Source of the DNA: Utricularia gibba
Lineage: Eukaryota; Streptophyta; Magnoliopsida; Lamiales; Lentibulariaceae
Reading direction: 5' to 3'
Assembly (NCBI GenBank): GCA_002189035.1
Contig: NEEC01000195.1
Coordinates: 1-64,000, forward strand
DNA: 64,000 bases
Positions 1-64,000 of the stretch are shown here, one piece after another. The notes beneath the pieces were generated by a model, which had not been told where the DNA came from, did not search any database, and saw nothing but the letters and a program-made list of their open reading frames with translations. A program made the position numbers and the translations under genes. Position 1 is the stretch's first letter; every line of letters begins with the position of its first letter.

Positions 1-234
1 ACTTTATACTTGAGGAGGCGGTCTTGGGTGCACTTGGAACCGGAAAAAGATCAGCTTAGGCCTTGGCCCAAAGTAAGTTGTAGCCCGGCAAAGAAAGTGA
101 TGTATTTATTAACGTTCGGTTTTCGGTGTTGCCTACATGGTTTTTCAAGGAACAGCTTCTCGTTTTGTGGCGGCCAGTCTCGCTAGGAACTTGGTCCGGG
201 CCCGCGATTCTTTATGGCTCATGAGGACAAAAGG

Positions 235-246
235 ATGCAAATCGAT
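235..246 (+). promoter_or_regulatory. Octamer-like motif overlapping ATCGAT (first example)
   Basis: ATGCAAAT (235..242) matches the canonical POU/Oct octamer and overlaps the palindrome ATCGAT (241..246). The block gatgcaaatcgat is shared by both types and survives even in strongly eroded copies, so there are about 200 copies in the window. That the array binds any such factor is inference and depends on the host lineage. Confidence 0.4.
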
Positions 247-280
247 GAATACAATGTTGCATTTGTTTAAATTGCGATAT

Positions 281-289
281 CACGTGCAC
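281..289 (+). promoter_or_regulatory. CACGTG/GTGCAC overlapping palindromes (first example)
   Basis: CACGTG (281..286), the core of the E-box/G-box class, overlaps GTGCAC (284..289). It lies just before the T-rich tail of nearly every monomer of either type and is lost only in a few scars. It may be a protein site or simply a conserved part of the founder sequence. Confidence 0.4.
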
Positions 290-346
290 CCACATGATTT
301 TTTCAACAACTTACTTTATACTTGAGCAGGCGGTCTTTGGGTGCAC
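284..346 (+). other. Dyad across the monomer junction (first example)
   Basis: GTGCACCC at 284..291 and its exact reverse complement GGGTGCAC at 339..346 are separated by 47 bp containing the T-rich tail and actttata junction. Each arm contains GTGCAC, itself a palindrome. The pair occurs at every junction that leads into a head with gggtgcac (most B heads and subfamily-2 A heads). It is lost where the head reads gggggcac. It could extrude a hairpin or bind a dimeric protein, but no function is shown. Confidence 0.6.
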
Positions 347-402
347 CTGGAACGGGACAAAGGTAAGGTTTGGCTTGCACGAGAGTTAGTTGTAGTCCGG
401 CA

Positions 403-408
403 AATAAA
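403..408 (+). promoter_or_regulatory. AATAAA hexamer restricted to type B (first example)
   Basis: B copies read ggcaaataaagtg, containing AATAAA, followed by a T-rich stretch (gatgtatttattatcg). A copies have ggcaaagaaagtg and lack it. If the array is transcribed on this strand, each dimer would offer one potential poly(A) signal. There is no evidence of transcription in the sequence. Confidence 0.3.
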
Positions 409-936
409 GTGATGTATTTATTATCGTTCGGTTTTCGGGGGCTGCCTACATGGTTTTTCAAGGAACCGCTTCTCGTTTGTGGCGGCCAGTCTCGCTGGGA
501 ACTTGGTCCTTGACCCCGATTCTGTATGGCTCATGAGGTCAACTGGATGCAAATCGATTAAAAAAAATGATCCATTTGTTTAAATTACGATGTCACGTGC
601 ACCCCACATGATTTTTTTAACAACTACTTTATACTTGAGGAGGCGGTCTTGGGGGCACTTGGAACCGGAAAAAGATCAGCTTAGGCCTTGGCCAAAGTAA
701 GTTGTAGCCCGGCAAAGAAAGTGATGTATTTATTAACGTTCGGTTTTCGGTGTTGCCTACATGGTTTTTCAAGGAACAGCTTCTCGTTTTGTGGCGGCCA
801 GTCTCGCTAGGAACTTGGTCCGGGCCCGCGATTCTTTATGGCTCATGAGGACAAAAGGATGCAAATCGATGAATACAATGTTGCATTTGTTTAAATTGCG
901 ATATCACGTGCACCCACATGATTTTTTCAACAACTT

Positions 937-1236
937 ACTTTACTTGAGAAGGCGGTCTTTGGGTGCACTTGGAACGGAAAAGGTCAGGTTAGGCTTGCCC
1001 AAAGTAGTTGTAGCCCGGCAAATAAAGTGATGTATTTATTATCGTTCGGTTTCGGGGCTGCCTACATGGTTTTTCAAGGAACGCTTCTCGTTTTGTGGCG
1101 GCCAGTCTCGCTGGGAACTTGGTCCCCCCGATTCTGTATGGCTCATGAGGTCAACTGGATGCAAATCGATTAAAAAAATGATGCATTTGTTTAAATTACG
1201 ATGTCACGTGCACCCACATGATTTTTTCAACAACTT
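937..1236 (+). repeat. Eroded mosaic monomer in a B slot
   Basis: This copy lies between two intact A copies. It reads ggaacgcttc where A has aacagc and B has aaccgc. It reads ggtccccccgattc where A has ccgggcccgcg and B has ccttgacccc. The rest is B-like (gctgggaac, gattctgtatgg, gtcaactgg, attacgatgt). The missing bases are those at which A and B disagree, so the copy looks like the shared subset of the two types at those columns. Confidence 0.8.
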
Positions 1237-2142
1237 ACTTTATACTTGAGAAGGCGGTCTTGGGTGCACTTGGAACCGGAAAAAGATCAGCTTAGGCTTG
1301 GCCCAAAGTAAGTTGTAGCCCGGCAAAGAAAGTGATGTATTTATTAACGTTCGGTTTTCGGTGTTGCCTACATGGTTTTTCAAGGAACAGCTTCTCGTTT
1401 TGTGGCGGCCAGTCTCGCTAGGAACTTGGTCCGGGCCCGCGATTCTTTATGGCTCATGAGGACAAAAGGATGCAAATCGATGAATACAATGTTGCATTTG
1501 TTTAAATTGCGATATCACGTGCACCCCACATGATTTTTTCAACAACTTACTTTATACTTGAGAAGGCGGTCTTTGGGTGCACTTGGAACGGAAAAAGGTA
1601 GCTTAGGCTTGGCCAAAGTAGTTGTAGCCCGGCAAAGAAAGTGATGTATTTATTAACGTTCGGTTTTTCGGGTTGCCTACATGGTTTTTCAAGGAACGCT
1701 TCTCGTTTTGTGGCGGCCAGTCTCGCTGGAACTTGGTCCGGCCCGATTCTTATGGCTCATGAGGTCAACTGGATGCAAATCGATGAATAAAATGATGCAT
1801 TTGTTTAAATTACGATATCACGTGCACCCCACATGATTTTTTCAACAACTTACTTTATACTTGAGAAGGCGGTCTTTGGGTGCACTTGGAACCGGAAAAG
1901 ATCAGCTTAGGCCTTGGCCCAAAGTAAGTTGTAGCCCGGCAAAGAAAGTGATGTATTTATTAACGTTCGGTTTTCGGTGTTGCCTACATGGTTTTTCAAG
2001 GAACAGCTTCTCGTTTTGTGGCGGCCAGTCTCGCTAGGAACTTGGTCCGGGCCCGCGATTCTTTATGGCTCATGAGGACAAAAGGATGCAAATCGATGAA
2101 TACAATGTTGCATTTGTTTAAATTGCGATATCACGTGCACCC

Positions 2143-2165
2143 CACGATTTTTTTGCAACGAGAAG
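2143..2165 (+). other. Junction deletion scar
   Basis: The monomer junction reads ccccacgattttttt then gcaacgagaagg. The usual junction has ccacatgatttttt, caacaacttac and tttatacttgagaagg. About 16-20 bp are missing, including the actttata start, and the interval between the flanking anchors (1988 and 2285) is 297 bp. No direct repeat longer than a few bases flanks the break. Confidence 0.75.
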
Positions 2166-5100
2166 GCGGTCTTTGGGTGCACTGGAACGGAAAAAAGATC
2201 AGCTTAGGCTTGGCCCAAAGTAAGTTGTAGCCCGGCAAAGAAAGTGATGTATTTATTAACGTTCGGTTTTCGGGGGTTGCCTACATGGTTTTTCAAGGAA
2301 CAGCTTCTCGTTTTGTGGCGGCCAGTCTCGCTAGGAACTTGGTCCGGGCCCGCGATTCTTTATGGCTCATGAGGACAATGGATGCAAATCGATGAAAAAA
2401 ATGATGCATTTGTTTAAATTACGATATCACGTGCACCCACATGATTTTTTTCAACAACTTACTTTATACTTGAGAAGGCGGTCTTTGGGTGCACTTGGAA
2501 CCGGAAAAAGGTCAGCTTAGGCCTTGGCCCAAAGTAAGTTGTAGCCCGCAAAGAAAGTGATGTATTTATTAACGTTCGGTTTTCGGTGTTGCCTACATGG
2601 TTTTTCAAGGAACAGCTTCTCGTTTTGTGGCGGCCAGTCTCGCTAGGAACTTGGTCCGGGCCCGCGATTCTTTATGGCTCATGAGGACAAAAGGATGCAA
2701 ATCGATGAATACAATGTTGCATTTGTTTAAATTGCGATATCACGTGCACCCCACATGATTTTTTCAACAACTTACTTTATACTTGAGGAGGCGGTCTTTG
2801 GGTGCACTGGAACGGAAAAAGGTCAGCTTAGGCCTTGGCCCAAAGTAGTTGTAGCCCGGCAAAAAAGTGATGTATTTATTAACGTTCGGTTTTCGGGTTG
2901 CCTACATGGTTTTTCAAGGAACCGCTTCTCGTTTTGTGGCGGCCAGTCTCGCTAGGAACTTGGTCCGGGCCCCCGATTCTGTATGGCTCATGAGGTCAAC
3001 TGGATGCAAATCGATGAAAAAAAATGATGCATTTGTTTAAATTACGATGTCACGTGCACCCACATGATTTTTTTCAACAACTTACTTTATACTTGAGAAG
3101 GCGGTCTTTGGGTGCACTTGGAACCGGAAAAAGGTCAGCTTAGGCCTTGGCCCAAAGTAAGTTGTAGCCCGGCAAAGAAAGTGATGTATTTATTAACGTT
3201 CGGTTTTCGGGTTGCCTACATGGTTTTTCAAGGAACAGCTTCTCGTTTTGTGGCGGCCAGTCTCGCTAGGAACTTGGTCCGGGCCCGCGATTCTTTATGG
3301 CTCATGAGGACAAAAGGATGCAAATCGATGAATACAATGTTGCATTTGTTTAAATTGCGATATCACGTGCACCCCACATGATTTTTTCAACAACTTACTT
3401 TATACTTGAGCAGGCGGTCTTTGGGTGCACCTGGAACGGGACAAAGGTAAGGTTTGGCTTGCACGAGAGTTAGTTGTAGTCCGGCAAATAAAGTGATGTA
3501 TTTATTATCGTTCGGTTTTCGGGGCTGCCTACATGGTTTTTCAAGGAACCGCTTCTCGTTTTGTGGCGGCCAGTCTCGCTGGAACTTGGTCCTTGACCCC
3601 GATTCTGTATGGCTCATGAGGTCAACTGGATGCAAATCGATTAAAAAAATGATGCATTTGTTTAAATTACGATGTCACGTGCACCCACATGATTTTTTTA
3701 ACAACATACTTTATACTGAGAGGCGGTCTTGGGGGCACTTGGAACCGGAAAAAGATCAGCTTAGGCCTTGGCCCAAAGTAAGTTGTAGCCCGGCAAAGAA
3801 AGTGATGTATTTATTAACGTTCGGTTTTCGGTGTTGCCTACATGGTTTTTCAAGGAACAGCTTCTCGTTTTGTGGCGGCCAGTCTCGCTAGGAATTGGTC
3901 CGGGCCCGCGATTCTTTATGGCTCATGAGGACAAAAGGATGCAAATCGATGAATACAATGTTGCATTTGTTTAAATTGCGATATCACGTGCACCCCACAT
4001 GATTTTTTCAACAACTTACTTTATACTTGAGCAGGCGGTCTTTGGGTGCACTGGAACGGGACAAAGGTAAGGTTTGGCTTGCAGAGAGTTAGTTGTAGTC
4101 CGGCAAATAAAGTGATGTATTTATTATCGTTCGGTTTTCGGGGTGCCTACATGGTTTTTCAAGGAACCGCTTCTCGTTTGTGGCGGCCAGTCTCGCTGGG
4201 AACTTGGTCCTTGACCCCGATTCTGTATGGCTCATGAGGTCAACTGGATGCAAATCGATTAAAAAAAATGATGCATTTGTTTAAATTACGATGTCACGTG
4301 CACCCCACATGATTTTTTAACAACTACTTTATACTGAGGAGGCGGTCTTGGGGGCACTTGGAACCGGAAAAAGATCAGCTTAGGCCTTGGCCAAAGTAAG
4401 TTGTAGCCGGCAAAGAAAGTGATGTATTTATTAACGTTCGGTTTTCGGTGTTGCCTACATGGTTTTTCAAGGAACAGCTTCTCGTTTTGTGGCGGCCAGT
4501 CTCGCTAGGAACTTGGTCGGGCCCGCGATTCTTTATGGCTCATGAGGACAAAAGGATGCAAATCGATGAATACAATGTTGCATTTGTTTAAATTGCGATA
4601 TCACGTGCACCCCACATGATTTTTTCAACAACTTACTTTATACTTGAGAAGGCGGTCTTTGGGTGCACCTGGAACGGAAAAAGGTCAGCTTAGGCTTGGC
4701 AAGTAAGTTGTAGTCCGGCAAAGAAAGTGATGTATTTATTATCGTTCGGTTTTCGGGGCTGCCTACATGGTTTTTCAAGGAACCGCTTCTCGTTTTGTGG
4801 CGGCCAGTCTCGCTGGAACTTGGTCCGGGCCCCCGATTCTTTATGGCTCATGAGGTCAAAAGGATGCAAATCGATGAATACAATGATGCATTTGTTTAAA
4901 TTGCGATATCACGTGCACCCCACATGATTTTTTCAACAACTTACTTTATACTTGAGAAGGCGGTCTTTGGGTGCACTTGGAACCGGAAAAAGATCAGCTT
5001 AGGCCTTGGCCCAAAGTAAGTTGTAGCCCGGCAAAGAAAGTGATGTATTTATTAACGTTCGGTTTTCGGTGTTGCCTACATGGTTTTTCAAGGAACAGCT

Positions 5101-5873
5101 TCTCGTTTTGTGGCGGCCAGTCTCGCTAGGAACTTGGTCCGGGCCCGCGATTCTTTATGGCTCATGAGGACAAAGGATGCAAATCGATGAATACAATGTT
5201 GCATTTGTTTAAATTGCGATATCACGTGCACCCCACATGATTTTTTCAACAACTTACTTTATACTTGAGAAGGCGGTCTTTGGGTGCACTTGGAACCGGA
5301 AAAAGGTCAGCTTAGGCTTGGCCCAAAGTAAGTTGTAGCCCGGCAAATAAAGTGATGTATTTATTATCGTTCGGTTTTCGGGTTGCCTACATGGTTTTTC
5401 AAGGAACAGCTTCTCGTTTTGTGGCGGCCAGTCTCGCTGGAACTTGGTCCGGGCCCCGATTCTTTATGGCTCATGAGGTCAACTGGATGCAAATCGATGA
5501 AAAAATGATGCATTTGTTTAAATTGCGATATCACGTGCACCCACATGATTTTTTCAACAACTTACTTTATACTTGAGAAGGCGGTCTTTGGGTGCACTTG
5601 GAACCGGAAAAAGATCAGCTTAGGCCTTGGCCCAAAGTAAGTTGTAGCCCGGCAAAGAAAGTGATGTATTTATTAACGTTCGGTTTTCGGTGTTGCCTAC
5701 ATGGTTTTTCAAGGAACAGCTTCTCGTTTTGTGGCGGCCAGTCTCGCTAGGAACTTGGTCCGGGCCCCGATTCTTTATGGCTCATGAGGACAAAAGGATG
5801 CAAATCGATGAATACAATGTTGCATTTGTTTAAATTGCGATATCACGTGCACCCCACATTTTTTCAACAACTT

Positions 5874-6156
5874 ACTTTATACTGAGTCTTTGGGTGCACT
5901 TGGAACGGAAAAAGTCAGCTTAGGCTTGGCCCAAAGTTGTAGCCCGGCAAAGAAAGTGATGTATTTATTAACGTTCGGTTTTCGGGGCCTACATGGTTTT
6001 TCAAGGAACAGCTTCTCGTTTTGTGGCGGCCAGTCTCGCTGGAACTTGGTCCGGGCCCCGATTCTTTATGGCTCATGAGGTCAAAAGGATGCAAATCGAT
6101 GAAACAATGATGCATTTGTTTAAATTGCGATATCACGTGCACCCCACATGATTTTT
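5874..6156 (+). repeat. Eroded monomer with shortened head
   Basis: The head lacks the aggcgg segment (tttatactgagtctttggg). The spacer before gttgtag is short, and ttcggggcctacatgg replaces cggtgttgcc (A) or cgggggctgcc (B). The tail is mixed: gctggaac, ccgggccccgattc, gtcaaaagg, gatgaaacaatgatgc and attgcgatat. The anchor interval before this copy is 292 bp. Confidence 0.78.
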
Positions 6157-9100
6157 TCAACAACTTACTTTATACTGAGAGGCGGTCTTTGGGGCACTTG
6201 GAACCGGAAAAGATCAGCTTAGGCCTTGCCCAAAGTAAGTTGTAGCCCGGCAAAGAAAGTGATGTATTTATTAACGTTCGGTTTTCGGTGTTGCCTACAT
6301 GGTTTTTCAAGGAACAGCTTCTCGTTTTGTGGCGGCCAGTCTCGCTAGGAACTTGGTCCGGGCCCGCGATTCTTTATGGCTCATGAGGACAAAAGGATGC
6401 AAATCGATGAATACAATGTTGCATTTGTTTAAATTGCGATATCACGTGCACCCCACATGATTTTTTCAACAACTTACTTTATACTTGAGCAGGCGGTCTT
6501 TGGGTGCACCTGGAACGGGACAAAGGTAAGGTTTGGCTTGCACGAGAGTTAGTTGTAGTCCGGCAAATAAAGTGATGTATTTATTATCGTTCGGTTTTCG
6601 GGGGCTGCCTACATGGTTTTTCAAGGAACCGCTTCTCGTTTGTGGCGGCCAGTCTCGCTGGGAACTTGGTCCTTGACCCCGATTCTGTATGGCTCATGAG
6701 GTCAACTGGATGCAAATCGATTAAAAAAATGATCCATTTGTTTAAATTACGATGTCACGTGCACCCCACATGATTTTTTTAACAACATACTTTATACTGA
6801 GGAGGCGGTCTTGGGGGGCACTTGGAACCGGAAAAAGATCAGCTTAGGCCTTGGCCCAAAGTAAGTTGTAGCCCGGCAAAGAAAGTGATGTATTTATTAA
6901 CGTTCGGTTTTCGGTGTTGCCTATGGTTTTTCAAGGAACAGCTTCTCGTTTTGTGGCGGCCAGTCTCGCTAGGAACTTGGTCCGGGCCCGCGATTCTTTA
7001 TGGCTCATGAGGACAAAAGGATGCAAATCGATGAATACAATGTTGCATTTGTTTAAATTGCGATATCACGTGCACCCACATGATTTTTTCAACAACTTAC
7101 TTTATACTTGAGAAGGCGGTCTTTGGGTGCACTTGGAACGGAAAAGATCAGCTTAGGCTTGGCCCAAAGTAAGTTGTAGCCCGGCAAAGAAAGTGATGTA
7201 TTTATTAACGTTCGGTTTTCGGGTTGCCTACATGGTTTTTCAAGGAACCGCTTCTCGTTTTGTGGCGGCCAGTCTCGCTGGAACTTGGTCCGGGCCCCGA
7301 TTCTTTATGGCTCATGAGGTCAAAAGGATGCAAATCGATGAATAAATGTTGCATTTGTTTAAATTGCGATATCACGTGCACCCCACATGATTTTTTCAAC
7401 AACTTACTTTATACTTGAGAAGGCGGTCTTTGGGTGCACTTGGAACCGGAAAAAGGTCAGCTTAGGCCTTGGCCCAAAGTAAGTTGTAGCCCGGCAAAGA
7501 AAGTGATGTATTTATTAACGTTCGGTTTTCGGTGTTGCCTACATGGTTTTTCAAGGAACAGCTTCTCGTTTTGTGGCGGCCAGTCTCGCTAGGAACTTGG
7601 TCCGGGCCCCGATTCTTTATGGCTCATGAGGACAACTGGATGCAAATCGATGAAACAATGATGCATTTGTTTAAATTACGATATCACGTGCACCCCACAT
7701 GATTTTTTCAACAACTTACTTTACTTGAGAAGGCGGTCTTGGGCACTTGGAACCGGAAAAAGGTCAGCTTAGGCCTTGGCCCAAAGTAAGTTGTAGCCCG
7801 GCAAAGAAAGTGATGTATTTATTAACGTTCGGTTTTCGGTGTTGCCTACATGGTTTTTCAAGGAACAGCTTCTCGTTTTGTGGCGGCCAGTCTCGCTAGG
7901 AACTTGGTCCGGGCCCGCGATTCTTTATGGCTCATGAGGACAAAAGGATGCAAATCGATGAATACAATGTTGCATTTGTTTAAATTGCGATATCACGTGC
8001 ACCCCACATGATTTTTTCAACAACTTACTTTATACTTGAGGAGGCGGTCTTTGGGTGCACTTGGAACCGGAAAAAGGTCAGCTTAGGCTTGGCCAAAGTA
8101 AGTTGTAGCCCGGCAAAGAAAGTGATGTATTTATTAACGTTCGGTTTTCGGGTTGCCTACATGGTTTTTCAAGGAACAGCTTCTCGTTTTGTGGCGGCCA
8201 GTCTCGCTGGGAACTTGGTCCGGGCCCGATTCTGTATGGCTCATGAGGTCAACTGGATGCAAATCGATTAAAAAATGGCATTTGTTTAAATTACGATGTC
8301 ACGTGCACCCCACATGATTTTTTCAACAACTTACTTTATACTTGAGGAGGCGGTCTTTGGGGGCACTTGGAACCGGAAAAAGATCAGCTTAGGCCTTGGC
8401 CCAAAGTAAGTTGTAGCCCGGCAAAGAAAGTGATGTATTTATTAACGTTCGGTTTTCGGTGTTGCCTACATGGTTTTTCAAGGAACAGCTTCTCGTTTTG
8501 TGGCGGCCAGTCTCGCTAGGAACTTGGTCCGGGCCCGCGATTCTTTATGGCTCATGAGGACAAAAGGATGCAAATCGATGAATACAATGTTGCATTTGTT
8601 TAAATTGCGATATCACGTGCACCCCACATGATTTTTTCAACAACTTACTTTATACTTGAGAGGCGGTCTTTGGGTGCACCTGGAACGGGACAAAGGTAAG
8701 GTTTGGCTTGCAGAGTTAGTTGTAGTCCGGCAAATAAAGTGATGTATTTATTATCGTTCGGTTTTCGGGGGCTGCCTACATGGTTTTTCAAGGAACCGCT
8801 TCTCGTTTTGTGGCGGCCAGTCTCGCTGGGAACTTGGTCCTTGACCCCGATTCTGTATGGCTCATGAGGTCAACTGGATGCAAATCGATTAAAAAATGAT
8901 CCATTTGTTTAAATTACGATGTCACGTGCACCCACATGATTTTTTCAACAACTTACTTTATACTGAGAGGCGGTCTTTGGGGCACTTGGAACCGGAAAAA
9001 GATCAGCTTAGGCCTTGGCCCAAAGTAAGTTGTAGCCCGGCAAAGAAAGTGATGTATTTATTAACGTTCGGTTTTCGGTGTTGCCTACATGGTTTTTCAA

Positions 9101-18206: not shown

Positions 18207-18513
18207 ACTTTATACTTGAGCAGGGGTCTTTGGGTGCACTGGAACGGGACAAAGTAAGGTTTGGCTTGCAAGAGTTAGTTGTAGTCCGGCAAATAAAGTG
18301 ATGTATTTATTATCGTTCGGTTTTCGGGGCTGCCTACATGGTTTTTCAAGGAACCGCTTCTCGTTTTGTGGCGGCCAGTCTCGCTGGGAACTTGGTCCTG
18401 ACCCCGATTCTGTATGGCTCATGAGGTCAACTGGATGCAAATCGATTAAAAAAAATGATCCATTTGTTTAAATTACGATGTCACGTGCACCCCACATGAT
18501 TTTTTAACAACAT

Positions 18514-26400: not shown

Positions 26401-26490
26401 CTCGTTTGTGGCGGCCAGTCTCGCTGGAACTTGGTCCTTGACCCCGATTCTGTATGGCTCATGAGGTCAACTGGATGCAAATCGATTAAA

Positions 26491-30867: not shown

Positions 30868-31178
30868 ACTTATACTTGAGGAGGCGGTCTTGGGGGCACT
30901 TGGAACCGGAAAAAGTCAGCTTAGGCCTTGGCCCAAAGTAAGTTGTAGCCCGGCAAAGAAAGTGATGTATTTATTAACGTTCGGTTTTCGGTGTTGCCTA
31001 CATGGTTTTTCAAGGAACAGCTTCTCGTTTTGTGGCGGCCAGTCTCGCTAGGAACTTGGTCCTTGACCCCGATTCTTTATGGCTCATGAGGTCAACTGGA
31101 TGCAAATCGATTAAAAAAATGATGCATTTGTTTAAATTGCGATATCACGTGCACCCCACATGATTTTTTTAACAACTT
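30868..31178 (+). repeat. Complex A/B/A mosaic monomer
   Basis: Markers in order: A head (gtcagcttagg, gtagcccggcaaagaaag, ttattaacg, cggtgttgcc, aacagc, gctagg), then B ccttgacccc, then A gattctttatgg, then B gtcaactgg and gattaaaaaaatgatgc, then A attgcgatat. At least four switches in one monomer suggest patchy conversion or a mixed consensus rather than one crossover. Confidence 0.8.
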
Positions 31179-31488
31179 ACTTTATACTTGAGCAGGCGGT
31201 CTTTGGGGCACTGGAAACGGAAAAAGCAGCTTAGCCTTGCCAAAGTAAGTTGTAGTCCGGCAAAGAAAGTGATGTATTTATTAATCGTTCGGTTTTCGGG
31301 GGCTGCCTACATGGTTTTTCAAGGAACCGCTTCTCGTTTTGTGGCGGCCAGTCTCGCTGGGAACTTGGTCCTTGACCCCGATTCTGTATGGCTCATGAGG
31401 TCAACTGGATGCAAATCGATTAAAAAAATGTGATGCATTTGTTTAAATTACGATGTCACGTGCACCCCACATGATTTTTTAACAACAT

Positions 31489-33666: not shown

Positions 33667-33951
33667 ACTTTATACATGAGGAGGCGGTCTTGGGGGCACT
33701 TGGAACCGGAAAAAGGTCAGCTTAGGCCTTGGCCCAAAGTAAGTTGTAGCCCGGCAAAGAAAGTGATGTATTTATTAACGTTCGGTTTTCGGTGTTGCCT
33801 ACATGGTTTTTCAAGGAACAGCTTCTCGTTTTGTGGCGGCCAGTCTCGCTAGGAACTATGGCTCATGAGGTCAACTGGATGCAAATCGATTAAAAAATGA
33901 TGCATTTGTTTAAATTCGATGTCACGTGCACCCCACATGATTTTTTCAACT
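33667..33951 (+). repeat. Hybrid monomer with 22 bp deletion
   Basis: An intact A head runs to gctaggaac, then jumps to tatggctcatgagg. The segment ttggtcc...gattct, which holds the most A/B-divergent part of the distal half, is missing. The tail is B (gtcaactgg, gattaaaaaatgatgc) with taaattcgatgtcacg, which lacks the base that differs between attgcgat and attacgat. The copy measures 285 bp. Confidence 0.85.
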
Positions 33952-36432
33952 ACTTTATACTGAGAGGCGGTCTTGGGGGCACTTGGAACCGGAAAAAGAT
34001 CAGCTTAGGCCTTGGCCCAAAGTAAGTTGTAGCCCGGCAAAGAAAGTGATGTATTTATTAACGTTCGGTTTTCGGTGTTGCCTACATGGTTTTTCAAGGA
34101 ACAGCTTCTCGTTTTGTGGCGGCCAGTCTCGCTAGGAACTTGGTCCGGGCCCGCGATTCTTTATGGCTCATGAGGACAAAAGGATGCAAATCGATGAATA
34201 CAATGTTGCATTTGTTTAAATTGCGATATCACGTGCACCCCACATGATTTTTTCAACAACTTACTTTATACTTGAGCAGGCGGTCTTTGGGTGCACCTGG
34301 AACGGGACAAAGGTTTTGGCTTGCACGAGAGTTAGTTGTAGTCCGGCAAATAAAGTGATGTATTTATTATCGTTCGGTTTTCGGGGGCTGCCTACATGGT
34401 TTTTCAAGGAACCGCTTCTCGTTTTTGGGCGGCCAGTCTCGCTGGGAACTTGGTCCTTGACCCCGATTCTGTATGGCTCATGAGGTCAACTGGATGCAAA
34501 TCGATTAAAAAAAAATGATCCATTTGTTTAAATTATGATGTCACGTGCACCCCACATGATTTTTTTAACAACTTACTTTATACTTGAGAAGGCGGTCTTG
34601 GGTGCACTTGGAACCGGAAAAAGATCAGCTTAGGCCTTGGCCCAAAGTAAGTTGTAGCCCGGCAAAGAAAGTGATGTATTTATTAACGTTCGGTTTTCGG
34701 TGTTGCCTACATGGTTTTTCAAGGAACAGCTTCTCGTTTTGTGGCGGCCAGTCTCGCTAGGAACTTGGTCCGGGCCCGCGATTCTTTATGGCTCATGAGG
34801 ACAAAAGGATGCAAATCGATGAATACAATGTTGCATTTGTTTAAATTGCGATATCACGTGCACCCCACATGATTTTTTCAACAACTTACTTTATACTTGA
34901 GCAGGCGGTCTTGGGTGCACTGGAACGGACAAAGGTAAGGTTTGGCTTGCACCGAGAGTTAGTTGTAGTCCGGCAAATAAAGTGATGTATTTATTATCGT
35001 TCGGTTTTCGGGGCTGCCTACATGGTTTTTCAAGGAACCGCTTCTCGTTTTGTGGCGGCCAGTCTCGCTGGGAACTTGGTCCTTGACCCCGATTCTGTAT
35101 GGCTCATGAGGTCAACTGGATGCAAATCGATTAAAAAAAATGATGCATTTGTTTAAATTACGATGTCACGTGCACCCCACATGATTTTTTTAACAATACT
35201 TTATACATGAGGAGGCGGTCTTGGGGGCACTTGGAACCGGAAAAAGATCAGCTTAGGCCTTGGCCCAAAGTAAGTTGTAGCCCGGCAAAGAAAGTGATGT
35301 ATTTATTAACGTTCGGTTTTCGGTGTTGCCTACATGGTTTTTCAAGGAACAGCTTCTCGTTTTGTGGCGGCCAGTCTCGCTAGGAACTTGGTCCGGGCCC
35401 GCGATTCTTTATGGCTCATGAGGACAAAAGGATGCAAATCGATGAATACAATGTTGCATTTGTTTAAATTGCGATATCACGTGCACCCCACATGATTTTT
35501 TCAACAACTTACTTTATACTTGAGGAGGCGGTCTTGGGGCACTTGGAACGGAAAAAGGCTTAGGCTTGGCCCAAAGTAAGTTGTAGTCCGGCAAATAAAG
35601 TGATGTATTTATTATCGTTCGGTTTTCGGGGGCTGCCTACATGGTTTTTCAAGGAACCGCTTCTCGTTTTGTGGCGGCCAGTCTCGCTGGGAACTTGGTC
35701 CTTGACCCCGATTCTGTATGGCTCATGAGGTCAACTGGATGCAAATCGATTAAAAAAAATGATGCATTTGTTTAAATTACGATGTCACGTGCACCCCACA
35801 TGATTTTTTTAACAACATACTTTATACTGAGAGGCGGTCTTGGGGGCACTTGGAACCGGAAAAAGGTCAGCTTAGGCCTTGGCCCAAAGTAAGTTGTAGC
35901 CCGGCAAAGAAAGTGATGTATTTATTAACGTTCGGTTTTCGGTGTTGCCTACATGGTTTTTCAAGGAACAGCTTCTCGTTTTGTGGCGGCCAGTCTCGCT
36001 AGGAACTTGGTCCGGGCCCGCGATTCTTTATGGCTCATGAGGACAAAAGGATGCAAATCGATGAATACAATGTTGCATTTGTTTAAATTGCGATATCACG
36101 TGCACCCCACATGATTTTTTCAACAACTTACTTTATACTTGAGCAGGCGGTCTTTGGGCACTGGAACGGGAAAAGGTAAGGTTTGGCTTGCAAGAGTTAG
36201 TTGTAGTCCGGCAAATAAAGTGATGTATTTATTACGTTCGGTTTTCGGGCTGCCTACATGGTTTTTCAAGGAACCGCTTCTCGTTTTGTGGCGGCCAGTC
36301 TCGCTGGGAACTTGGTCCTTGACCCCGATTCTGTATGGCTCATGAGGTCAACTGGATGCAAATCGATTAAAAAAAATGATGCATTTGTTTAAATTACGAT
36401 GTCACGTGCACCCCACATGATTTTTTCAACAT

Positions 36433-48248: not shown

Positions 48249-48857
48249 ACTTTATACTTGAGAAGGCGGTTTTGGGTGCACTTGGAACCGGAAAAAGATC
48301 AGCTTAGGCCTTGGCCCAAAGTAAGTTGTAGCCGGCAAAGAAAGTGATGTATTTATTAACGTTCGGTTTTCGGTGTTGCCTACATGGTTTTTCAAGGAAC
48401 AGCTTCTCGTTTTGTGGCGGCCAGTCTCGCTGGAACTTGGTCCCCCCGATTCTTTATGGCTCATGAGGTCAACTGATGCAAATCGATGAAAAAATGTTGC
48501 ATTTGTTTAAATTGCGATATCACGTGCACCCACATGATTTTTTCAACAACTTACTTTATACTTGAGAGGCGGTCTTTGGGTGCACTTGGAACCGGAAAAG
48601 ATCAGCTTAGGCCTGGCCAAAGAGTTGTAGCCCGGCAAAGAAAGTGATGTATTTATTAACGTTCGGTTTTCGGTGTTGCCTACATGGTTTTTCAAGGAAC
48701 GCTTCTCGTTTGTGGCGGCCAGTCTCGCTGGAACTTGGTCCTTGACCCCGATTCTGTATGGCTCATGAGGTCAACTGATGCAAATCGATTAAAAAAAATG
48801 ATGCATTTGTTTAAATTGCGATGTCACGTGCACCCCACATGATTTTTTCAACAACTT
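48249..48857 (+). repeat. Pair of eroded mosaic monomers
   Basis: The first copy has an A head with gtagccggcaaag (A gtagcccgg, B gtagtccgg). It then has gctggaac, ggtccccccgattc, gtcaactgatgc, gatgaaaaaatgttgc and attgcgatat. The second reads ggaacgcttc, tcgtttgtgg, gctggaac, then B ccttgacccc and gtcaactgatgc. Many of the missing bases are A/B-discordant columns. The pair lies between complete B (48073) and A (48995) copies. Confidence 0.82.
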
Positions 48858-50729: not shown

Positions 50730-51043
50730 ACTTTATACTTGAGAAGGCGGTCTTTGGGTGCACTTGGAACCGGAAAAAAGGTCAGCTTAGGCCTTGGCCC
50801 AAAGTAAGTTGTAGCCCGGCAAAGAAAGTGATGTATTTATTAACGTTCGGTTTTCGGGTTGCCTACATGGTTTTTCAAGGAACCGCTTCTCGTTTTGTGG
50901 CGGCCAGTCTCGCTGGGAACTTGGTCCTTGACCCCGATTCTGTATGGCTCATGAGGTCAACTGGATGCAAATCGATTAAAAAAATGATGCATTTGTTTAA
51001 ATTACGATATCACGTGCACCCCACATGATTTTTTCAACAACTT
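50730..51043 (+). repeat. A-head/B-tail hybrid monomer
   Basis: The A head (ggtcagcttagg, gtagcccggcaaagaaag, ttattaacg) is followed by ttcgggttgcc, then B markers from aaccgc onward (gctggg, ccttgacccc, gtcaactgg, gattaaaaaaatgatgc), ending attacgatat. The switch lies between ttattaacg and aaccgc, upstream of the common interval. It follows a B ending attatgatgt and shifts the dimer phase. Confidence 0.85.
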
Positions 51044-52903: not shown

Positions 52904-53483
52904 ACTTTATACTTGAGGAGGCGGTCTTGGGGCACTTGGAACCGGAAAAAGATCAGCTTAGGCCTTGGCCCAAAGTAAGTTGTAGCCCGGCAAAGAAAGT
53001 GATGTATTTATTAACGTTCGGTTTTCGGTTGCCTACATGGTTTTTCAAGGAACAGCTTCTCGTTTTGTGGCGGCCAGTCTCGCTGGAACTTGGTCCGCCC
53101 GATTCTTATGGCTCATGAGGGGATGCAAATCGATCATTTGTTTAAATTGCGATATCACGTGCACCCCACATGATTTTTTCAACAATACTTTATACTTGAG
53201 AGGCGGTCTTTGGGGCACTTGGAACCGGAAAGCAGCTTAGGCTTGGCCAAAGTAAGTTGTAGCCCGGCAAAGAAAGTGATGTATTTTATTTTTCGGTTTT
53301 CGGGGTTGCCTACATGGTTTTTCAAGGAACAGCTTCTCGTTTTGTGGCGGCCAGTCTCGCTGGAACTTGGTCCCCCCGATTCTTATGGCTCATGAGGTCA
53401 ACTGGATGCAAATCGATTAAAAAAATGATCATTTGTTTAAATTATGATGTCACGTGCACCCCACATGATTTTTTCAACAACTT
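52904..53483 (+). repeat. Most eroded pair of monomers in the array
   Basis: The first copy (283 bp) reads gctggaac, ggtccgcccgattcttatgg, then catgaggggatgcaaatcg and atcatttgtttaaattg. This is close to what remains when A (gacaaaagg; gatgaatacaatgttgc) and B (gtcaactgg; gattaaaaaaaatgatgc) are reduced to shared bases. The second reads ggaaagcagcttagg, gtattttatttttcgg (losing aacg or atcg), gctggaac, ggtccccccgattc and ttatggc, then a B tail. Flanking copies (52729B, 53613B) are close to normal. Confidence 0.85.
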
Positions 53484-55850
53484 ACTTTATACTGAGAGGC
53501 GGTCTTGGGGGCACTTGGAACGGAAAAAGGTCAGCTTAGGCTTGGCCAAAGTAAGTTGTAGCCGGCAAATAAAGTGATGTATTTATTATCGTTCGGTTTT
53601 CGGGGTGCCTACATGGTTTTTCAAGGAACCGCTTCTCGTTTTGTGGCGGCCAGTCTCGCTGGGAACTTGGTCCTTGACCCCGATTCTGTATGGCTCATGA
53701 GGTCAACTGGATGCAAATCGATTAAAAAAAATGATGCATTTGTTTAAATTACGATGTCACGTGCACCCCACATGATTTTTTAACAACTTACTTTATACTG
53801 AGGAGGCGGTCTTGGGGGCACTTGGAACCGGAAAAAGGTCAGCTTAGGCCTTGGCCCAAAGTAAGTTGTAGCCCGGCAAAGAAAGTGATGTATTTATTAA
53901 CGTTCGGTTTTCGGTGTTGCCTACATGGTTTTTCAAGGAACAGCTTCTCGTTTTGTGGCGGCCAGTCTCGCTAGGAACTTGGTCCGGGCCCGATTCTTTA
54001 TGGCTCATGAGGACAAAAGGATGCAAATCGATGAATACAATGTTGCATTTGTTTAAATTGCGATATCACGTGCACCCCACATGATTTTTTCAACAACTTA
54101 CTTTATACTTGAGCAGGCGGTCTTTGGGTGCACTGGAACGGGACAAAGGTAGGTTTGGCTTGCAGAGAGTTAGTTGTAGTCCGGCAAATAAAGTGATGTA
54201 TTTTATTATCGTTCGGTTTTCGGGGCTGCCTACATGGTTTTTCAAGGAACCGCTTCTCGTTTTGTGGCGGCCAGTCTCGCTGGGAACTTGGTCCTTGACC
54301 CCGATTCTGTATGGCTCATGAGGTCAACTGGATGCAAATCGATTAAAAAAAATGATCCATTTGTTTAAATTATGATGTCACGTGCACCCCACATGATTTT
54401 TTCAACAACTTACTTTATACTGAGAAGGCGGTCTTGGGGCACTTGGAACCGGAAAAAGGTCAGCTTAGGCCTTGGCCCAAAGTAAGTTGTAGCCCGGCAA
54501 AGAAAGTGATGTATTTATTAACGTTCGGTTTTCGGTGTTGCCTACATGGTTTTTCAAGGAACAGCTTCTCGTTTTGTGGCGGCCAGTCTCGCTAGGAACT
54601 TGGTCCGGGCCCGCGATTCTTTATGGCTCATGAGGACAAAAGGATGCAAATCGATGAATAAATGTTGCATTTGTTTAAATTGCGATATCACGTGCACCCC
54701 ACATGATTTTTTCAACAACTTACTTTATACTTGAGCAGGCGGTCTTTGGGTGCACTGGAACGGGACAAAGGTAAGGTTGGCTTGCCCGAGAGTTAGTTGT
54801 AGTCCGGCAAATAAGTGATGTATTTATTATCGTTCGGTTTTCGGGGCTGCCTACATGGTTTTTCAAGGAACCGCTTCTCGTTTTGTGGCGGCCAGTCTCG
54901 CTGGGAACTTGGTCCTTGACCCCGATTCTGTATGGCTCATGAGGTCAACTGGATGCAAATCGATTAAAAAAAATGATGCATTTGTTTAAATTACGATGTC
55001 ACGTGCACCCCACATGATTTTTTAACAACATACTTTATACTGAGGAGGCGGTCTTGGGGGCACTTGGAACCGGAAAAGGTCAGCTTAGGCCTTGGCCCAA
55101 AGTAAGTTGTAGCCCGGCAAAGAAAGTGATGTATTTATTAACGTTCGGTTTTCGGTGTTGCCTACATGGTTTTTCAAGGAACAGCTTCTCGTTTTGTGGC
55201 GGCCAGTCTCGCTAGGAACTTGGTCCGGGCCCGCGATTCTTTATGGCATGAGGACAAAAGGATGCAAATCGATGAATACAATGTTGCATTTGTTTAAATT
55301 GCGATATCACGTGCACCCCACATGATTTTTTCAACAACTTACTTTATACTTGAGGAGGCGGTCTTGGGGCACTGGAACGGAAAAGGTCAGCTTAGGCTTG
55401 AAAGTAAGTTGTAGTCCGGCAAATAAAGTGATGTATTTATTATCGTTCGGTTTTCGGGGGCTGCCTACATGGTTTTTCAAGGAACGCTTCTCGTTTTGTG
55501 GCGGCCAGTCTCGCTGGGAACTTGGTCCTTGACCCCGATTCTGTATGGCTCATGAGGTCAACTGGATGCAAATCGATTAAAAAAAATGATGCATTTGTTT
55601 AAATTACGATGTCACGTGCACCCCACATGATTTTTTTAACAACTACTTTATACATGAGGAGGCGGTCTTGGGGGCACTTGGAACCGGAAAAAGGTCAGCT
55701 TAGGCCTTGGCCCAAAGTAAGTTGTAGCCCGGCAAAGAAAGTGATGTATTTATTAACGTTCGGTTTTCGGTGTTGCCTACATGGTTTTTCAAGGAACAGC
55801 TTCTCGTTTTGTGGCGGCCAGTCTCGCTAGGAACTTGGTCCGGGCCCGCG

Positions 55851-55865
55851 ATTCATGCAAAAGGA
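55851..55865 (+). other. Short deletion scar in a type A monomer
   Basis: The copy reads gcgattcatgcaaaaggatg in place of gattctttatggctcatgag followed by gacaaaaggatg. About 14 bp are missing around the short repeated string catg, shortening the next anchor interval to 298 bp. The rest of the copy is ordinary A. Confidence 0.75.
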
Positions 55866-56253
55866 TGCAAATCGATGAATACAATGTTGCATTTGTTTAA
55901 ATTGCGATATCACGTGCACCCCACATGATTTTTTCAACAACTTACTTTATACTTGAGCAGGCGGTCTTTGGGTGCACTGGAACGGGACAAAGGTAGGTTT
56001 GGCTTGCACGAGAGTTAGTTGTAGTCCGGCAAATAAAGTGATGTATTTATTATCGTTCGGTTTTCGGGGGCTGCCTACATGGTTTTTCAAGGAACCGCTT
56101 CTCGTTTTGTGGCGGCCAGTCTCGCTGGGAACTTGGTCCTTGACCCCGATTCTGTATGGCTCATGAGGTCAACTGGATGCAAATCGATTAAAAAAATGAT
56201 CATTTGTTTAATTATGATGTCACGTGCACCCCACATGATTTTTTCAACAACTT

Positions 56254-56550
56254 ACTTTATACTTGAGGAGGCGGTCTTGGGGCACTTGGAACCGGAAAAA
56301 GATCAGCTTAGGCTTGGCCCAAAGTAAGTTGTAGCCGGCAAAGAAAGTGATGTATTTATTAACGTTCGGTTTTCGGTTGCCTACATGGTTTTTCAAGGAA
56401 CAGCTTCTCGTTTTGTGGCGGCCAGTCTCGCTGGGAACTGGTCCCCCCGATTCTTATGGCTCATGAGGTGGATGCAAATCGATTAAAAAAATGATGCATT
56501 TGTTTAAATTACGATATCACGTGCACCCCACATGATTTTTTCAACAACTT
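56254..56550 (+). repeat. Eroded hybrid monomer at a phase slip
   Basis: The A head (agatcagcttagg, aacagc) has gtagccgg and cggttgcc gaps. Then come gctgggaac, ctggtccccccgattc, ttatggc, catgaggtggatgc, gattaaaaaaatgatgc and attacgatat. Gaps fall at discordant columns. It follows a B ending attatgatgt and precedes an A, adding one monomer to the register. Confidence 0.82.
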
Positions 56551-56850
56551 ACTTTATACTGAGAGGCGGTCTTTGGGCACTTGGAACGGAAAAGATCAGC
56601 TTAGGCCTTGGCCCAAAGTAAGTTGTAGCCCGGCAAAGAAAGTGATGTATTTATTAACGTTCGGTTTTCGGGTTGCCTACATGGTTTTTCAAGGAACAGC
56701 TTCTCGTTTTGTGGCGGCCAGTCTCGCTAGGAACTTGGTCCCGATTCTTTATGGCTCATGAGGACAAAAGGATGCAAATCGATGAATACAATGTTGCATT
56801 TGTTTAAATTGCGATATCACGTGCACCCCACATGATTTTTTCAACAACTT

Positions 56851-59800
56851 ACTTTATACTTGAGCAGGCGGTCTTTGGGTGCACCTGGAACGGGAAAAAG
56901 GTAAGGTTTGGCTTGCACCGAGAGTTAGTTGTAGTCCGGCAAATAAAGTGATGTATTTATTATCGTTCGGTTTTCGGGGGCTGCCTACATGGTTTTTTCA
57001 AGGAACCGCTTCTCGTTTTGTGGCGGCCAGTCTCGCTGGGAACTTGGTCCTTGACCCCGATTCTGTATGGCTCATGAGGTCAACTGGATGCAAATCGATT
57101 AAAAAAAATGATGCATTTTTTAAATTACGATGTCACGTGCACCCCACATGATTTTTTCAACAACTTACTTTATACTTGAGGAGGCGGTCTTTGGGTGCAC
57201 TTGGAACCGGAAAAAGATCAGCTTAGGCCTTGGCCCAAAGTAAGTTGTAGCCCGGCAAAGAAAGTGATGTATTTATTAACGTTCGGTTTTCGGTGTTGCC
57301 TACATGGTTTTTCAAGGAACAGCTTCTCGTTTTGTGGCGGCCAGTCTCGCTAGGAACTTGGTCCGGGCCCGCGATTCTTTATGGCTCATGAGGACAAAAG
57401 GATGCAAATCGATGAATACAATGTTGCATTTGTTTAAATTGCGATATCACGTGCACCCCACATGATTTTTTCAACAACTTACTTTATACTTGAGAGGCGG
57501 TCTTGGGTGCACCTGGAACGGGAAAAGGTAAGGTTTGGCTTGCACCGAGAGTAGTTGTAGTCCGGCAAAAAAGTGATGTATTTATTATCGTTCGGTTTTC
57601 GGGGGCTGCCTACATGGTTTTTCAAGGAACCGCTTCTCGTTTTGTGGCGGCCAGTCTCGCTGGGAACTTGGTCCTTGACCCCGATTCTGTATGGCTCATG
57701 AGGTCAACTGGATGCAAATCGATTAAAAAAATGATCCATTTGTTTAAATTACGATGTCACGTGCACCCCACATGATTTTTTTAACAACTTACTTTATACT
57801 TGAGAAGGCGGTCTTGGGGCACTTGGAACCGGAAAAAGATCAGCTTAGGCTTGGCCCAAAGTAAGTTGTAGCCCGGCAAAGAAAGTGATGTATTTATTAA
57901 CGTTCGGTTTTCGGTTGCCTACATGGTTTTTCAAGGAACAGCTTCGTTTTGTGGCGGCCAGTCTCGCTAGGAACTTGGTCCGGGCCCGCGATTCTTTATG
58001 GCTCATGAGGACAAAAGGATGCAAATCGATGAATACAATGTTGCATTTGTTTAAATTGCGATATCACGTGCACCCCACATGATTTTTTCAACAACTTACT
58101 TTATACTTGAGGAGGCGGTCTTTGGGGGCACTTGGAACGGAAAAAGGTAGGTTAGGCTTGCCAAAGTAAGTTGTAGTCCGGCAAATAAAGTGATGTATTT
58201 ATTATCGTTCGGTTTTCGGGGGCTGCCTACATGGTTTTTCAAGGAACCGCTTCTCGTTTTGTGGCGGCCAGTCTCGCTGGGAACTTTGGTCCTTGACCCC
58301 GATTCTGTATGGCTCATGAGGTCAACTGGATGCAAATCGATTAAAAAAATGATGCATTTGTTTAAATTACGATGTCACGTGCACCCCACATGATTTTTTT
58401 AACAACTACTTTATACATGAGGAGGCGGTCTTGGGGGCACTTGGAACCGGAAAAAGGTCAGCTTAGGCCTTGGCCCAAAGTAAGTTGTAGCCCGGCAAAG
58501 AAAGTGATGTATTTATTAACGTTCGGTTTTCGGTGTGCCTACATGGTTTTTCAAGGAACAGCTTCTCGTTTTGTGGCGGCCAGTCTCGCTAGGAACTTGG
58601 TCCGGGCCCGCGATTCTTTATGGCTCATGAGGACAAAAGGATGCAAATCGATGAATACAATGTTGCATTTGTTTAAATTGCGATATCACGTGCACCCCAC
58701 ATGATTTTTTCAACAACTTACTTTATACTTGAGCAGGCGGTCTTTGGGTGCACTGGAACGGGACAAAGGTAGGTTTGGCTTGCGAGAGTTAGTTGTAGTC
58801 CGGCAAATAAAGTGATGTATTTATTATCGTTCGGTTTTCGGGGGCTGCCTACATGGTTTTTCAAGGAACCGCTTCTCGTTTTGTGGCGGCCAGTCTCGCT
58901 GGGAACTTGGTCCTTGACCCCGATTCTGTATGGCTCATGAGGTCAACTGGATGCAAATCGATTAAAAAAATGATGCATTTGTTTAAATTACGATGTCACG
59001 TGCACCCCACATGATTTTTTAACAACATACTTTATACATGAGAGGCGGTCTTGGGGGCACTTGGAACCGGAAAAAGGTCAGCTTAGGCCTTGGCCCAAAG
59101 TAAGTTGTAGCCCGGCAAAGAAAGTGATGTATTTATTAACGTTCGGTTTTCGGTGTTGCCTACATGGTTTTTCAAGGAACAGCTTCTCGTTTTGTGGCGG
59201 CCAGTCTCGCTAGGAACTTGGTCCGGGCCCGCGATTCTTTATGGCTCATGAGGACAAAAGGATGCAAATCGATGAATACAATGTTGCATTTGTTTAAATT
59301 GCGATATCACGTGCACCCCACATGATTTTTTCAACAACTTACTTTATACTTGAGAGGCGGTCTTGGGGGCACTGGAACGGAAAAAGGTCAGCTTAGGCTT
59401 GCCCAAAGTAAGTTGTAGTCCGGCAAATAAAGTGATGTATTTATTATCGTTCGGTTTTCGGGGGCTGCCTACATGGTTTTTCAAGGAACCGCTTCTCGTT
59501 TTGTGGCGGCCAGTCTCGCTGGGAACTTGGTCCTTGACCCCGATTCTGTATGGCTCATGAGGTCAACTGGATGCAAATCGATTAAAAAAAATGATGCATT
59601 TGTTTAAATTACGATGTCACGTGCACCCCACATGATTTTTTCAACAACTTTATTTACTTGAGAGGCGGTCTTGGGGGCACTTGGAACCGGAAAAAGGTCA
59701 GCTTAGGCCTTGGCCCAAAGTAAGTTGTAGCCCGGCAAAGAAAGTGATGTATTTATTAACGTTCGGTTTTCGGTGTTGCCTACATGGTTTTTCAAGGAAC

Positions 59801-62800
59801 AGCTTCTCGTTTTGTGGCGGCCAGTCTCGCTAGGAACTTGGTCCGGGCCCGATTCTTTATGGCTCATGAGGACAAAGGATGCAAATCGATGAATACAATG
59901 TTGCATTTGTTTAAATTGCGATATCACGTGCACCCCACATGATTTTTTCAACAACTTACTTTATACTTGAGCAGGCGGTCTTTGGGTGCACCTGGAACGG
60001 GACAAAGGTAGGTTTGGCTTGCGAGAGTTAGTTGTAGTCCGGCAAATAAAGTGATGTATTTATTATCGTTCGGTTTTCGGGGTGCCTACATGGTTTTTCA
60101 AGGAACCGCTTCTCGTTTTGTGGCGGCCAGTCTCGCTGGGAACTTGGTCCTTGACCCGATTCTGTATGGCTCATGAGGTCAACTGGATGCAAATCGATTA
60201 AAAAAAATGATCCATTTGTTTAAATTATGATGTCACGTGCACCCCATGATTTTTTAACAACTTACTTTATACTTGAGGAGGCGGTCTTTGGGTGCACTTG
60301 GACCGGAAAAAGATCAGCTTAGGCTTGGCCCAAAGTAAGTTGTAGCCCGGCAAAGAAAGTGATGTATTTATTAACGTTCGGTTTTCGGTGTTGCCTACAT
60401 GGTTTTTCAAGGAACAGCTTCTCGTTTTGTGGCGGCCAGTCTCGCTGGGAACTTGGTCCGACCCCGATTCTATGGCTCATGAGGACAAAGGATGCAAATC
60501 GATTAAAAAAAATGATGCATTTGTTTAAATTGCGATATCACGTGCACCCCACATGATTTTTTTCAACAAACTTTATACTTGAGGAGGCGGTCTTGGGGCA
60601 CTTGGAACCGGAAAAAGGTCAGCTTAGGCCTTGGCCCAAAGTAAGTTGTAGCCCGGCAAAGAAAGTGATGTATTTATTAACGTTCGGTTTTCGGTGTTGC
60701 CTACATGGTTTTTCAAGGAACAGCTTCTCGTTTGTGGCGGCCAGTCTCGCTAGGAACTTGGTCCGGGCCCGATTCTTTATGGCTCATGAGGACAAAAGGA
60801 TGCAAATCGATGAACAATGTTGCATTTGTTTAAATTGCGATATCACGTGCACCCCACATGATTTTTTCAACAACTTACTTTATACTTGAGCAGGCGGTCT
60901 TTGGGTGCACCTGGAACGGGACAAAGGTAAGGTTTGGCTTGCACCGAGAGTTAGTTGTAGTCCGGCAAAAAGTGATGTATTTATTATCGTTCGGTTTTCG
61001 GGGGCTGCCTACATGGTTTTTCAAGGAACCGCTTCTCGTTTGTGGCGGCCAGTCTCGCTGGGAACTTGGTCCTTGACCCCGATTCTGTATGGCTCATGAG
61101 GTCAACTGGATGCAAATCGATTAAAAAAAATGATCCATTTGTTTAAATTATGATGTCACGTGCACCCCACATGATTTTTTCAACAACTTACTTTATACTT
61201 GAGAAGGCGGTCTTGGGGGCACTTGGAACCGGAAAAAGATCAGCTTAGGCCTTGGCCCAAAGTAAGTTGTAGCCCGGCAAAGAAAGTGATGTATTTATTA
61301 ACGTTCGGTTTTCGGTTTGCCTACATGGTTTTTCAAGGAACAGCTTCTCGTTTTGTGGCGGCCAGTCTCGCTAGGAACTTGGTCCGGGCCCGCGATTCTT
61401 TATGGCTCATGAGGACAAAGGATGCAAATCGATGAATACAATGTTGCATTTGTTTAAATTGCGATATCACGTGCACCCCACATGATTTTTTCAACAACTT
61501 ACTTTATACTTGAGCAGGCGGTCTTTGGGTGCACTGGAACGGGACAAAGGTAGGTTTGGCTTGCAGAGAGTTAGTTGTAGTCCGGCAAATAAAGTGATGT
61601 ATTTATTATCGTTCGGTTTTCGGGGGCTGCCTACATGGTTTTTCAAGGAACCGCTTCTCGTTTTGTGGCGGCCAGTCTCGCTGGGAACTTGGTCCTTGAC
61701 CCCGATTCTGTATGGCTCATGAGGTCAACTGGATGCAAATCGATTAAAAAAAATGATCCATTTGTTTAAATTATGATGTCACGTGCACCCCACATGATTT
61801 TTTCAACAACTTACTTTATACTTGAGAAGGCGGTCTTTGGGTGCACTTGGAACCGGAAAAAGATCAGCTTAGGCCTTGGCCCAAAGTAAGTTGTAGCCCG
61901 GCAAAGAAAGTGATGTATTTATTAACGTTCGGTTTTCTGTTGCCTACATGGTTTTTCAAGGAACAGCTTCTCGTTTTGTGGCGGCCAGTCTCGCTAGGAA
62001 CTTGGTCCGGGCCCGCGATTCTTTATGGCTCATGAGGACAAAAGGATGCAAATCGATGAATACAATGTTGCATTTGTTTAAATTGCGATTCACGTGCACC
62101 CCACATGATTTTTTCAACAACTTACTTTATACTTGAGAGGCGGTCTTTGGGGGCACTTGGAACGGAAAAAGGTAGCTTAGGCTTGCCCAAGTAAGTTGTA
62201 GTCCGGCAAATAAAGTGATGTATTTATTATCGTTCGGTTTTCGGGGGCTGCTACATGGTTTTTCAAGGAACCGCTTCTCGTTTTGTGGCGGCCAGTCTCG
62301 CTGGGAACTTGGTCCTTGACCCGATTCTGTATGGCTCATGAGGTCAACTGGATGCAAATCGATTAAAAAAAATGATCCATTTGTTTAAATTATGATGTCA
62401 CGTGCACCCCACATGATTTTTTCAACAACTTACTTTATACTTGAGAAGGCGGTCTTTGGGTGCACTTGGAACCGGAAAAAGATCAGCTTAGGCCTTGGCC
62501 CAAAGTAAGTTGTAGCCGGCAAAGAAAGTGATGTATTTATTAACGTTCGGTTTTCGGTGTTGCCTACATGGTTTTTCAAGGAAACAGCTTCTCGTTTTGT
62601 GGCGGCCAGTCTCGCTAGGAACTTGGTCCGGGCCCGCGATTCTTTATGGCTCATGAGGACAAAAGGATGCAAATCGATGAATAAATGTTGCATTTGTTTA
62701 AATTGCGATTCACGTGCACCCCACATGATTTTTTCAACAACTTACTTTATACTTGAGCAGGCGGTCTTTGGGTGCACGGAACGGGACAAAAAGGTTTGGC

Positions 62801-64000
62801 TTGCACCGAGAGTTAGTTGTAGTCCGGCAAATAAAGTGATGTATTTATTATCGTTCGGTTTTCGGGGGCTGCCTACATGGTTTTTCAAGGAACCGCTTCT
62901 CGTTTTGTGGCGGCCAGTCTCGCTGGAACTTGGTCCTTGACCCCGATTCTGTATGGCTCATGAGGTCAACTGGATGCAAATCGATTAAAAAAAATGATCC
63001 ATTTGTTTAAATTATGATGTCACGTGCACCCCACATGATTTTTTCAACAACTTACTTTATACTTGAGGAGGCGGTCTTTGGGGCACTTGGAACCGGAAAA
63101 AATCAGCTTAGGCCTTGGCCCAAAGTAAGTTGTAGCCCGGCAAAGAAAGTGATGTATTTATTAACGTTCGGTTTTCGGTGTTGCCTACATGGTTTTTCAA
63201 GGAACAGCTTCTCGTTTTGTGGCGGCCAGTCTCGCTAGGAACTTGGTCCGGGCCCGCGATTCTTTATGGCTCATGAGGACAAAAGGATGCAAATCGATGA
63301 ATACAATGTTGCATTTGTTTAAATTGCGATATCACGTGCACCCCACATGATTTTTTCAACAACTTACTTTATACTTGAGAGGCGGTCTTGGGGCACTGGA
63401 ACGGAAAAGGCTTAGGCTTGGCAAAGTTAGTTGTAGTCCGGCAAATAAAGTGATGTATTTATTATCGTTCGGTTTTCGGGGGCTGCCTACATGGTTTTTC
63501 AAGGAACCGCTTCTCGTTTTGTGGCGGCCAGTCTCGCTGGGAACTTGGTCCTTGACCCCGATTCTGTATGGCTCATGAGGTCAACTGGATGCAAATCGAT
63601 TAAAAAAAATGATGCATTTGTTTAAATTACGATGTCACGTGCACCCCACATGATTTTTTTAACAACTACTTTATACTGAGAGGCGGTCTTGGGGGGCACT
63701 TGGAACCGGAAAAAGGTCAGCTTAGGCCTTGGCCCAAAGTAAGTTGTAGCCCGGCAAAGAAAGTGATGTATTTATTAACGTTCGGTTTTCGGTGTTGCCT
63801 ACATGGTTTTTCAAGGAACAGCTTCTCGTTTTGTGGCGGCCAGTCTCGCTAGGAACTTGGTCCGGGCCCGCGATTCTTTATGGCTCATGAGGACAAAAGG
63901 ATGCAAATCGATGAATACAATGTTGCATTTGTTTAAATTGCGATATCACGTGCACCCCACATGATTTTTTCAACAACTTACTTTATACTTGAGCAGGCGG
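56851..64000 (+). repeat. Array block VIII: regular dimers to the right window edge
   Basis: Anchors: 56989B 57304A 57614B 57923A 58231B 58543A 58853B 59164A 59473B 59784A 60090B 60399m 60705A 61013B 61325A 61635B 61948A 62255B 62568A 62877B 63189A 63491B 63803A, then a truncated B beginning at about 63982. From ~60.2 kb to ~63.0 kb most B copies end attatgatgt (60227, 61148, 61771, 62391, 63013). Most of the following A units start tatacttgag with atcagc in the head, so subfamily 2 dominates. The last tatacatgag junction is near 59034. The array runs off the window mid-copy. Confidence 0.92.
60264..60569 (+). repeat. A-head/B-tail mosaic monomer
   Basis: The A head runs through aacagc, followed by gctgggaac, ggtccgaccccgattc and tatggctc, then gacaaagg (A), gattaaaaaaaatgatgc (B) and attgcgatat (A). 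It follows a B ending attatgatgt (about 60227) and precedes a complete A, so it shifts the dimer phase by one. Confidence 0.82.

Follow-up and report, generated by a model that had tools for sequence, protein, structure and literature searches.

The window, by which we mean the whole 64,000-nucleotide stretch of DNA analysed here, comprises bases 1-64000 of contig C55 (66,602 bp), from a genome of 100.09 Mb in 516 contigs. It consists of a single satellite array, which Tandem Repeats Finder resolves into 207 copies with a period of ~311 bp, and the array and the individual units that are relevant to the analysis are as follows.

1-64000, plus strand: satellite array of ~311-315 bp units, with A and B mostly alternating (dimer of about 622-630 bp); Tandem Repeats Finder and unit typing.
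136-448, plus strand: example of a clean A-type unit (m0), 313 bp; unit typing, with the A type recurring exactly in other contigs.
1065-1370, plus strand: unit containing GGAACGCTTC, whose left half has further gaps where the types are discordant and whose right half is B-like; string search and unit typing.
1680-1986, plus strand: mosaic unit, 307 bp, with A and B alleles mixed in the left half and losses at discordant columns, containing GGAACGCTTC, GCTGGAAC and GATTCTTATGG; string search and unit typing.
31001-31309, plus strand: unit of 309 bp with A and B alleles mixed in both halves; unit typing.
33802-34084, plus strand: mosaic unit m109, much shortened, 283 bp; unit typing.
48383-48682, plus strand: mosaic unit m156, much shortened, 300 bp; unit typing.
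53036-53611, plus strand: adjoining mosaic units m171 and m172, of 277 and 299 bp, in which discordant columns have often lost their base; unit typing.
56384-56679, plus strand: mosaic unit m182, 296 bp, with many losses; unit typing.
60398-60703, plus strand: mosaic unit m195, 306 bp, with many losses; unit typing.

The satellite is present in at least 20 contigs of the genome, those besides the window being C7, C17, C20, C24, C25, C33, C59, C60, C96 and C101, together with C114, C313, C478, C479, C481, C482, C484, C488 and C489, and these other contigs are much cleaner than the window. An earlier reading of the window, made from its sequence only, had described the units as A and B, and both types are indeed present and alternating. 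An alignment based on two types had to be dropped, however, because exact recurrent units in the cleaner contigs revealed B1 and B2. Together with A these make up three types of 315 bp, besides which recombinant units exist. The A and B types differ by 10-15%, and exact, unmixed A, B1 and B2 units are found elsewhere in the genome, in C484, C479, C7, C488 and others. Two unit types alternate as an A-B dimer in the window as well as in C17, C7, C484, C479 and C488, while units with an A-left and a B2-right half occur in C60, C24, C25, C33 and C313 and form runs in several of these (C60, C24 and C313). The array forms in the genome are thus the A-B1 dimer, the A-B2 dimer and a monomeric A-left/B2-right form. 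The monomeric array covers most of one end of C60, and its unit is frequent in C24.

Over columns 170-208, B2 has an unbroken series of alleles in common with A, apart from a base of its own at column 193, and no base is lost. This A-like tract on a B1-like background is likely to be a real gene conversion tract that was formed without base loss. Beyond the window, C55:64001-66602 contains a 367-bp unit in which a local duplication joins A-left to B2-left sequence, and the A-B2 units near it are almost clean. Two longer unit spacings, of 471 and 481 bp, are seen in C313:1-8000, which is perhaps the edge of an array with insertions.

A search of a plasmid collection with the window gave no match, and literature searches found no published description of the satellite unit. 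The putative centromeres of U. gibba have been stated to be without satellite repeats (PMC8333044), and if the genome is that of Utricularia gibba, a satellite in at least 20 contigs may bear on that statement. In the same genome, cox1 is split by an intron seemingly with an ORF, on a contig of at least 184 kb.

In 206 units of the window we counted 815 deletion events and 43 inserted bases but only 17 private substitutions, which bears out the observation made from sequence that private substitutions are rare. The central claim of the sequence-only reading was that bases are missing where the A and B types disagree. We examined this by an alignment-free count in which the exact flanks of each column were sought with and without the central base, patterns that match intact units being excluded, and discordant columns were called strict when neither allele extends a neighbouring run, such that no homopolymer route to the loss exists. 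In the window the base was lost in 10 of 20,136 cases (0.05%) at concordant columns outside homopolymers and in 10 of 986 (1.0%) at strict discordant columns (odds ratio 20.6, p = 5.7e-9), and the claim therefore stands with an enrichment of ~20-fold at strict columns. The other discordant columns, at which an adjacent run is lengthened by an allele, lose the base in about 9-10% of cases, with 31% at one of them, and loss in concordant homopolymers climbs with run length (0.5, 2.8, 6.5 and 13% for runs of 2, 3, 4 and 5 or more). The strict-column enrichment together with the dependence on run length indicates that two processes are superimposed, one that shortens runs and one that removes bases at conflicting columns. 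The copies in C313 serve as a control for genuinely diverged units, as they carry many substitutions (2.8 private substitutions per unit) and gaps at discordant columns are not enriched in them.

The losses are concentrated in half-units in which A and B alleles are mixed. Loss of informative bases in the window is 1.5% in half-units with no A/B switch and 10.8% in those with at least three, and 63 hybrid halves have at least three switches inside about 150 bp. When counted by exact flanks over the window and eight other array stretches, mosaic half-units lose 266 of 1,218 bases (21.8%), about ten times the share lost in pure ones, 181 of 8,797 (2.1%), with an odds ratio of 13.3. The two variables are not fully independent, since the units used to call the drop-outs also served to call mosaic status. 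Loss in mosaic halves is graded by the alleles that extend a run, at 37.5% where both do, 20.6% where one does and 3.0% where none does, the corresponding values in pure halves being 2.4, 2.3 and 0.3%.

The mosaics are also unevenly placed. They are limited to the A-right and B-left halves while A-left and B-right stay pure, and a mosaic stretch is typically bounded by a pure A-left on one side and by a pure B half, left or right, on the other. Of 91 right halves that follow a pure A-left, 46 are mosaic, compared with 3 of 84 that follow a pure B-left (p = 3e-13). This placement fits the merging of an A-B dimer array, with the order A-left, A-right, B-left, B-right, and the monomeric A-left/B2-right array seen in other contigs, with the order A-left, B-right, A-left, B-right. 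A simple phase slip between ABAB and BABA reads was rejected as the source of the mixing, since it would mix all four half-units, yet A-left and B-right are pure. Mixing is limited to the A-right half in 32 of the 63 mosaic runs, which hints at a further real recombinant form with a B-like middle of A-right that would have been blurred by the consensus. A recurring A-right pattern, for example at 57921, 59162 and 61946, gives the same hint, its alleles being B1-like in the middle but A-like towards the tail.

All seven strings that had been quoted as examples of drop-outs were located in the window by string search, within a few bases of where they had been placed: GGAACGCTTC nine times, CAAAAAAGTG and GTAGCCGG five times each, TTATTACG and TAAATTCGAT twice each, GATTCTTATGG 14 times and GCTGGAAC 20 times. 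As A/B drop-outs they fare unequally. Five of the strings are enriched in mosaic copies, CAAAAAAGTG and TAAATTCGAT on few counts only, but GTAGCCGG (2 of 71 mosaic copies versus 9 of 273) and TTATTACG (1 of 68 versus 1 of 275) are not, and these two are best read as ordinary homopolymer shortening; many of the other examples also have a homopolymer component.

If the drop-outs were inherited, they might be expected to recur in neighbouring dimers. The same drop-out was found at a lag of two units 42 times, with 40.7 expected, and among the five lags tested sharing is slightly above chance at lags of four and six units (p = 0.045 and 0.022) and below it at lag three. Real conversion should leave contiguous and heritable tracts that are common to neighbours, whereas the window shows many switches per half and lag-2 sharing at the level of chance.

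The effect of mixed reads on a consensus was simulated with noisy reads (9% insertion, 4.5% deletion and 1.2% substitution) in which A was mixed with B1 or B2. A graph consensus, based on majority rule with each mismatch treated as one insertion plus one deletion, yielded all seven strings from mixed reads, with 26 to 76 occurrences per 240 units, compared with 0 to 2 in 240 from pure reads. The mean unit length was 306 bp with mixed reads, so that the 306-bp length was reproduced too, and 314 bp with pure reads. Its loss at strict columns was too high (18% versus 1.0% in the window), and it failed as a predictor of the observed order of discordant columns (rho 0.14, not significant). A maximum-likelihood consensus with a PacBio-like model, in which an inserted copy of the neighbouring base is cheap, gave the observed order of the classes (both, one and none, in descending order of loss) at absolute rates that are too low, and its per-column correlation was weak (rho 0.29-0.35, p 0.06-0.12). 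The models support the principle of read mixing rather than any exact consensus program.

We propose, with high confidence, that the drop-outs arose as errors in the consensus of a noisy long-read assembly whose satellite arrays were collapsed, with no biological process involved. Such a read-mixing artefact is what the sequence-only reading had put forward, and it is supported by the enrichment at discordant columns, the concentration in mosaics, the shorter units, the simulated strings, the lack of lag-2 sharing and the cleaner state of the other contigs, and also by the scarcity of private substitutions, the placement of the mosaics and the array forms that exist in the genome. We infer that the mixing occurred in the real assembly and that the drop-outs are not in the molecules. 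Reads from different array forms would have been piled together while contig C55 was being built. Where the types agree at a column the consensus would be correct, and where they disagree each allele would have the backing of just a fraction of the reads. With an error model rich in insertions, both alleles would then resemble spurious inserted bases, such that neither would gain a majority and the position would be deleted. At columns where one type is dominant the base would be kept, giving an A/B mosaic that changes column by column, and homopolymer shortening on top of this would represent ordinary indel error. The PacBio assembly of U. gibba was made with HGAP, with a mean subread of 10 kb and a contig N50 of 3.4 Mb (PMC5793159), and HGAP is likely to be the pipeline concerned if the genome is that of Utricularia gibba.

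Shortening of homopolymers by a noisy long-read consensus might in principle suffice, with the A/B conflict playing no role, and the climb of loss with run length and the behavior of GTAGCCGG and TTATTACG are what would be expected. We regard it as very unlikely as the whole explanation, however, as strict discordant columns, at which no run is extended, are still enriched 20-fold, and at the same columns the drop rate is strongly tied to mosaic status. The opposite possibility is that the sequence is real, such that recombination between units gave A/B heteroduplexes whose repair lost the mismatched base and left hybrids without the discordant bases. Losses do cluster in A/B hybrid units, and real recombinants exist, as shown by the B2 tract at columns 170-208 and by the A-left/B2-right units. 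Yet those recombinants that are exact or form runs (B2, and A-left/B2-right in C60) are contiguous and without systematic loss at discordant columns, the density of switches in the 63 hybrid halves is high, neighbouring dimers do not share drop-outs at lag 2, and private substitutions are nearly absent, unlike in C313. Repair of this kind is therefore an extremely improbable source of the drop-outs, and the earlier judgment that an artefact is likelier than a biological cause holds. An intermediate account, in which some hybrids are real, plant repair deletes mismatched bases between the unit types and the assembler adds only homopolymer noise, is given just as slight a chance.

If the consensus of mixed reads is indeed the cause, then the hybrid monomers, length variants and unit-level variation of this array are not to be taken as evolution, and the same applies to other satellite contigs assembled from noisy long reads. 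Single-base losses that are enriched at type-discordant columns, combined with almost no private substitutions, may serve as a diagnostic for collapsed arrays that can be applied without the reads.

The satellite itself shows nothing unusual when compared with plant satellites that have a dimeric higher-order repeat, as it likewise consists of alternating A/B units of ~315 bp, here with B represented by the variants B1 and B2 and with a recombinant that forms monomeric arrays. The drop-outs have their counterpart in the mosaics of collapsed alleles or repeats in long-read assemblies, and according to the HiCanu paper collapsed heterozygosity yields a mosaic consensus (PMC7545148). In both cases two sources are mixed column by column in one contig, but in the present array it is types of satellite unit that are mixed, and the most visible sign is the loss of bases at conflicting columns, graded according to the alleles that extend neighbouring runs.
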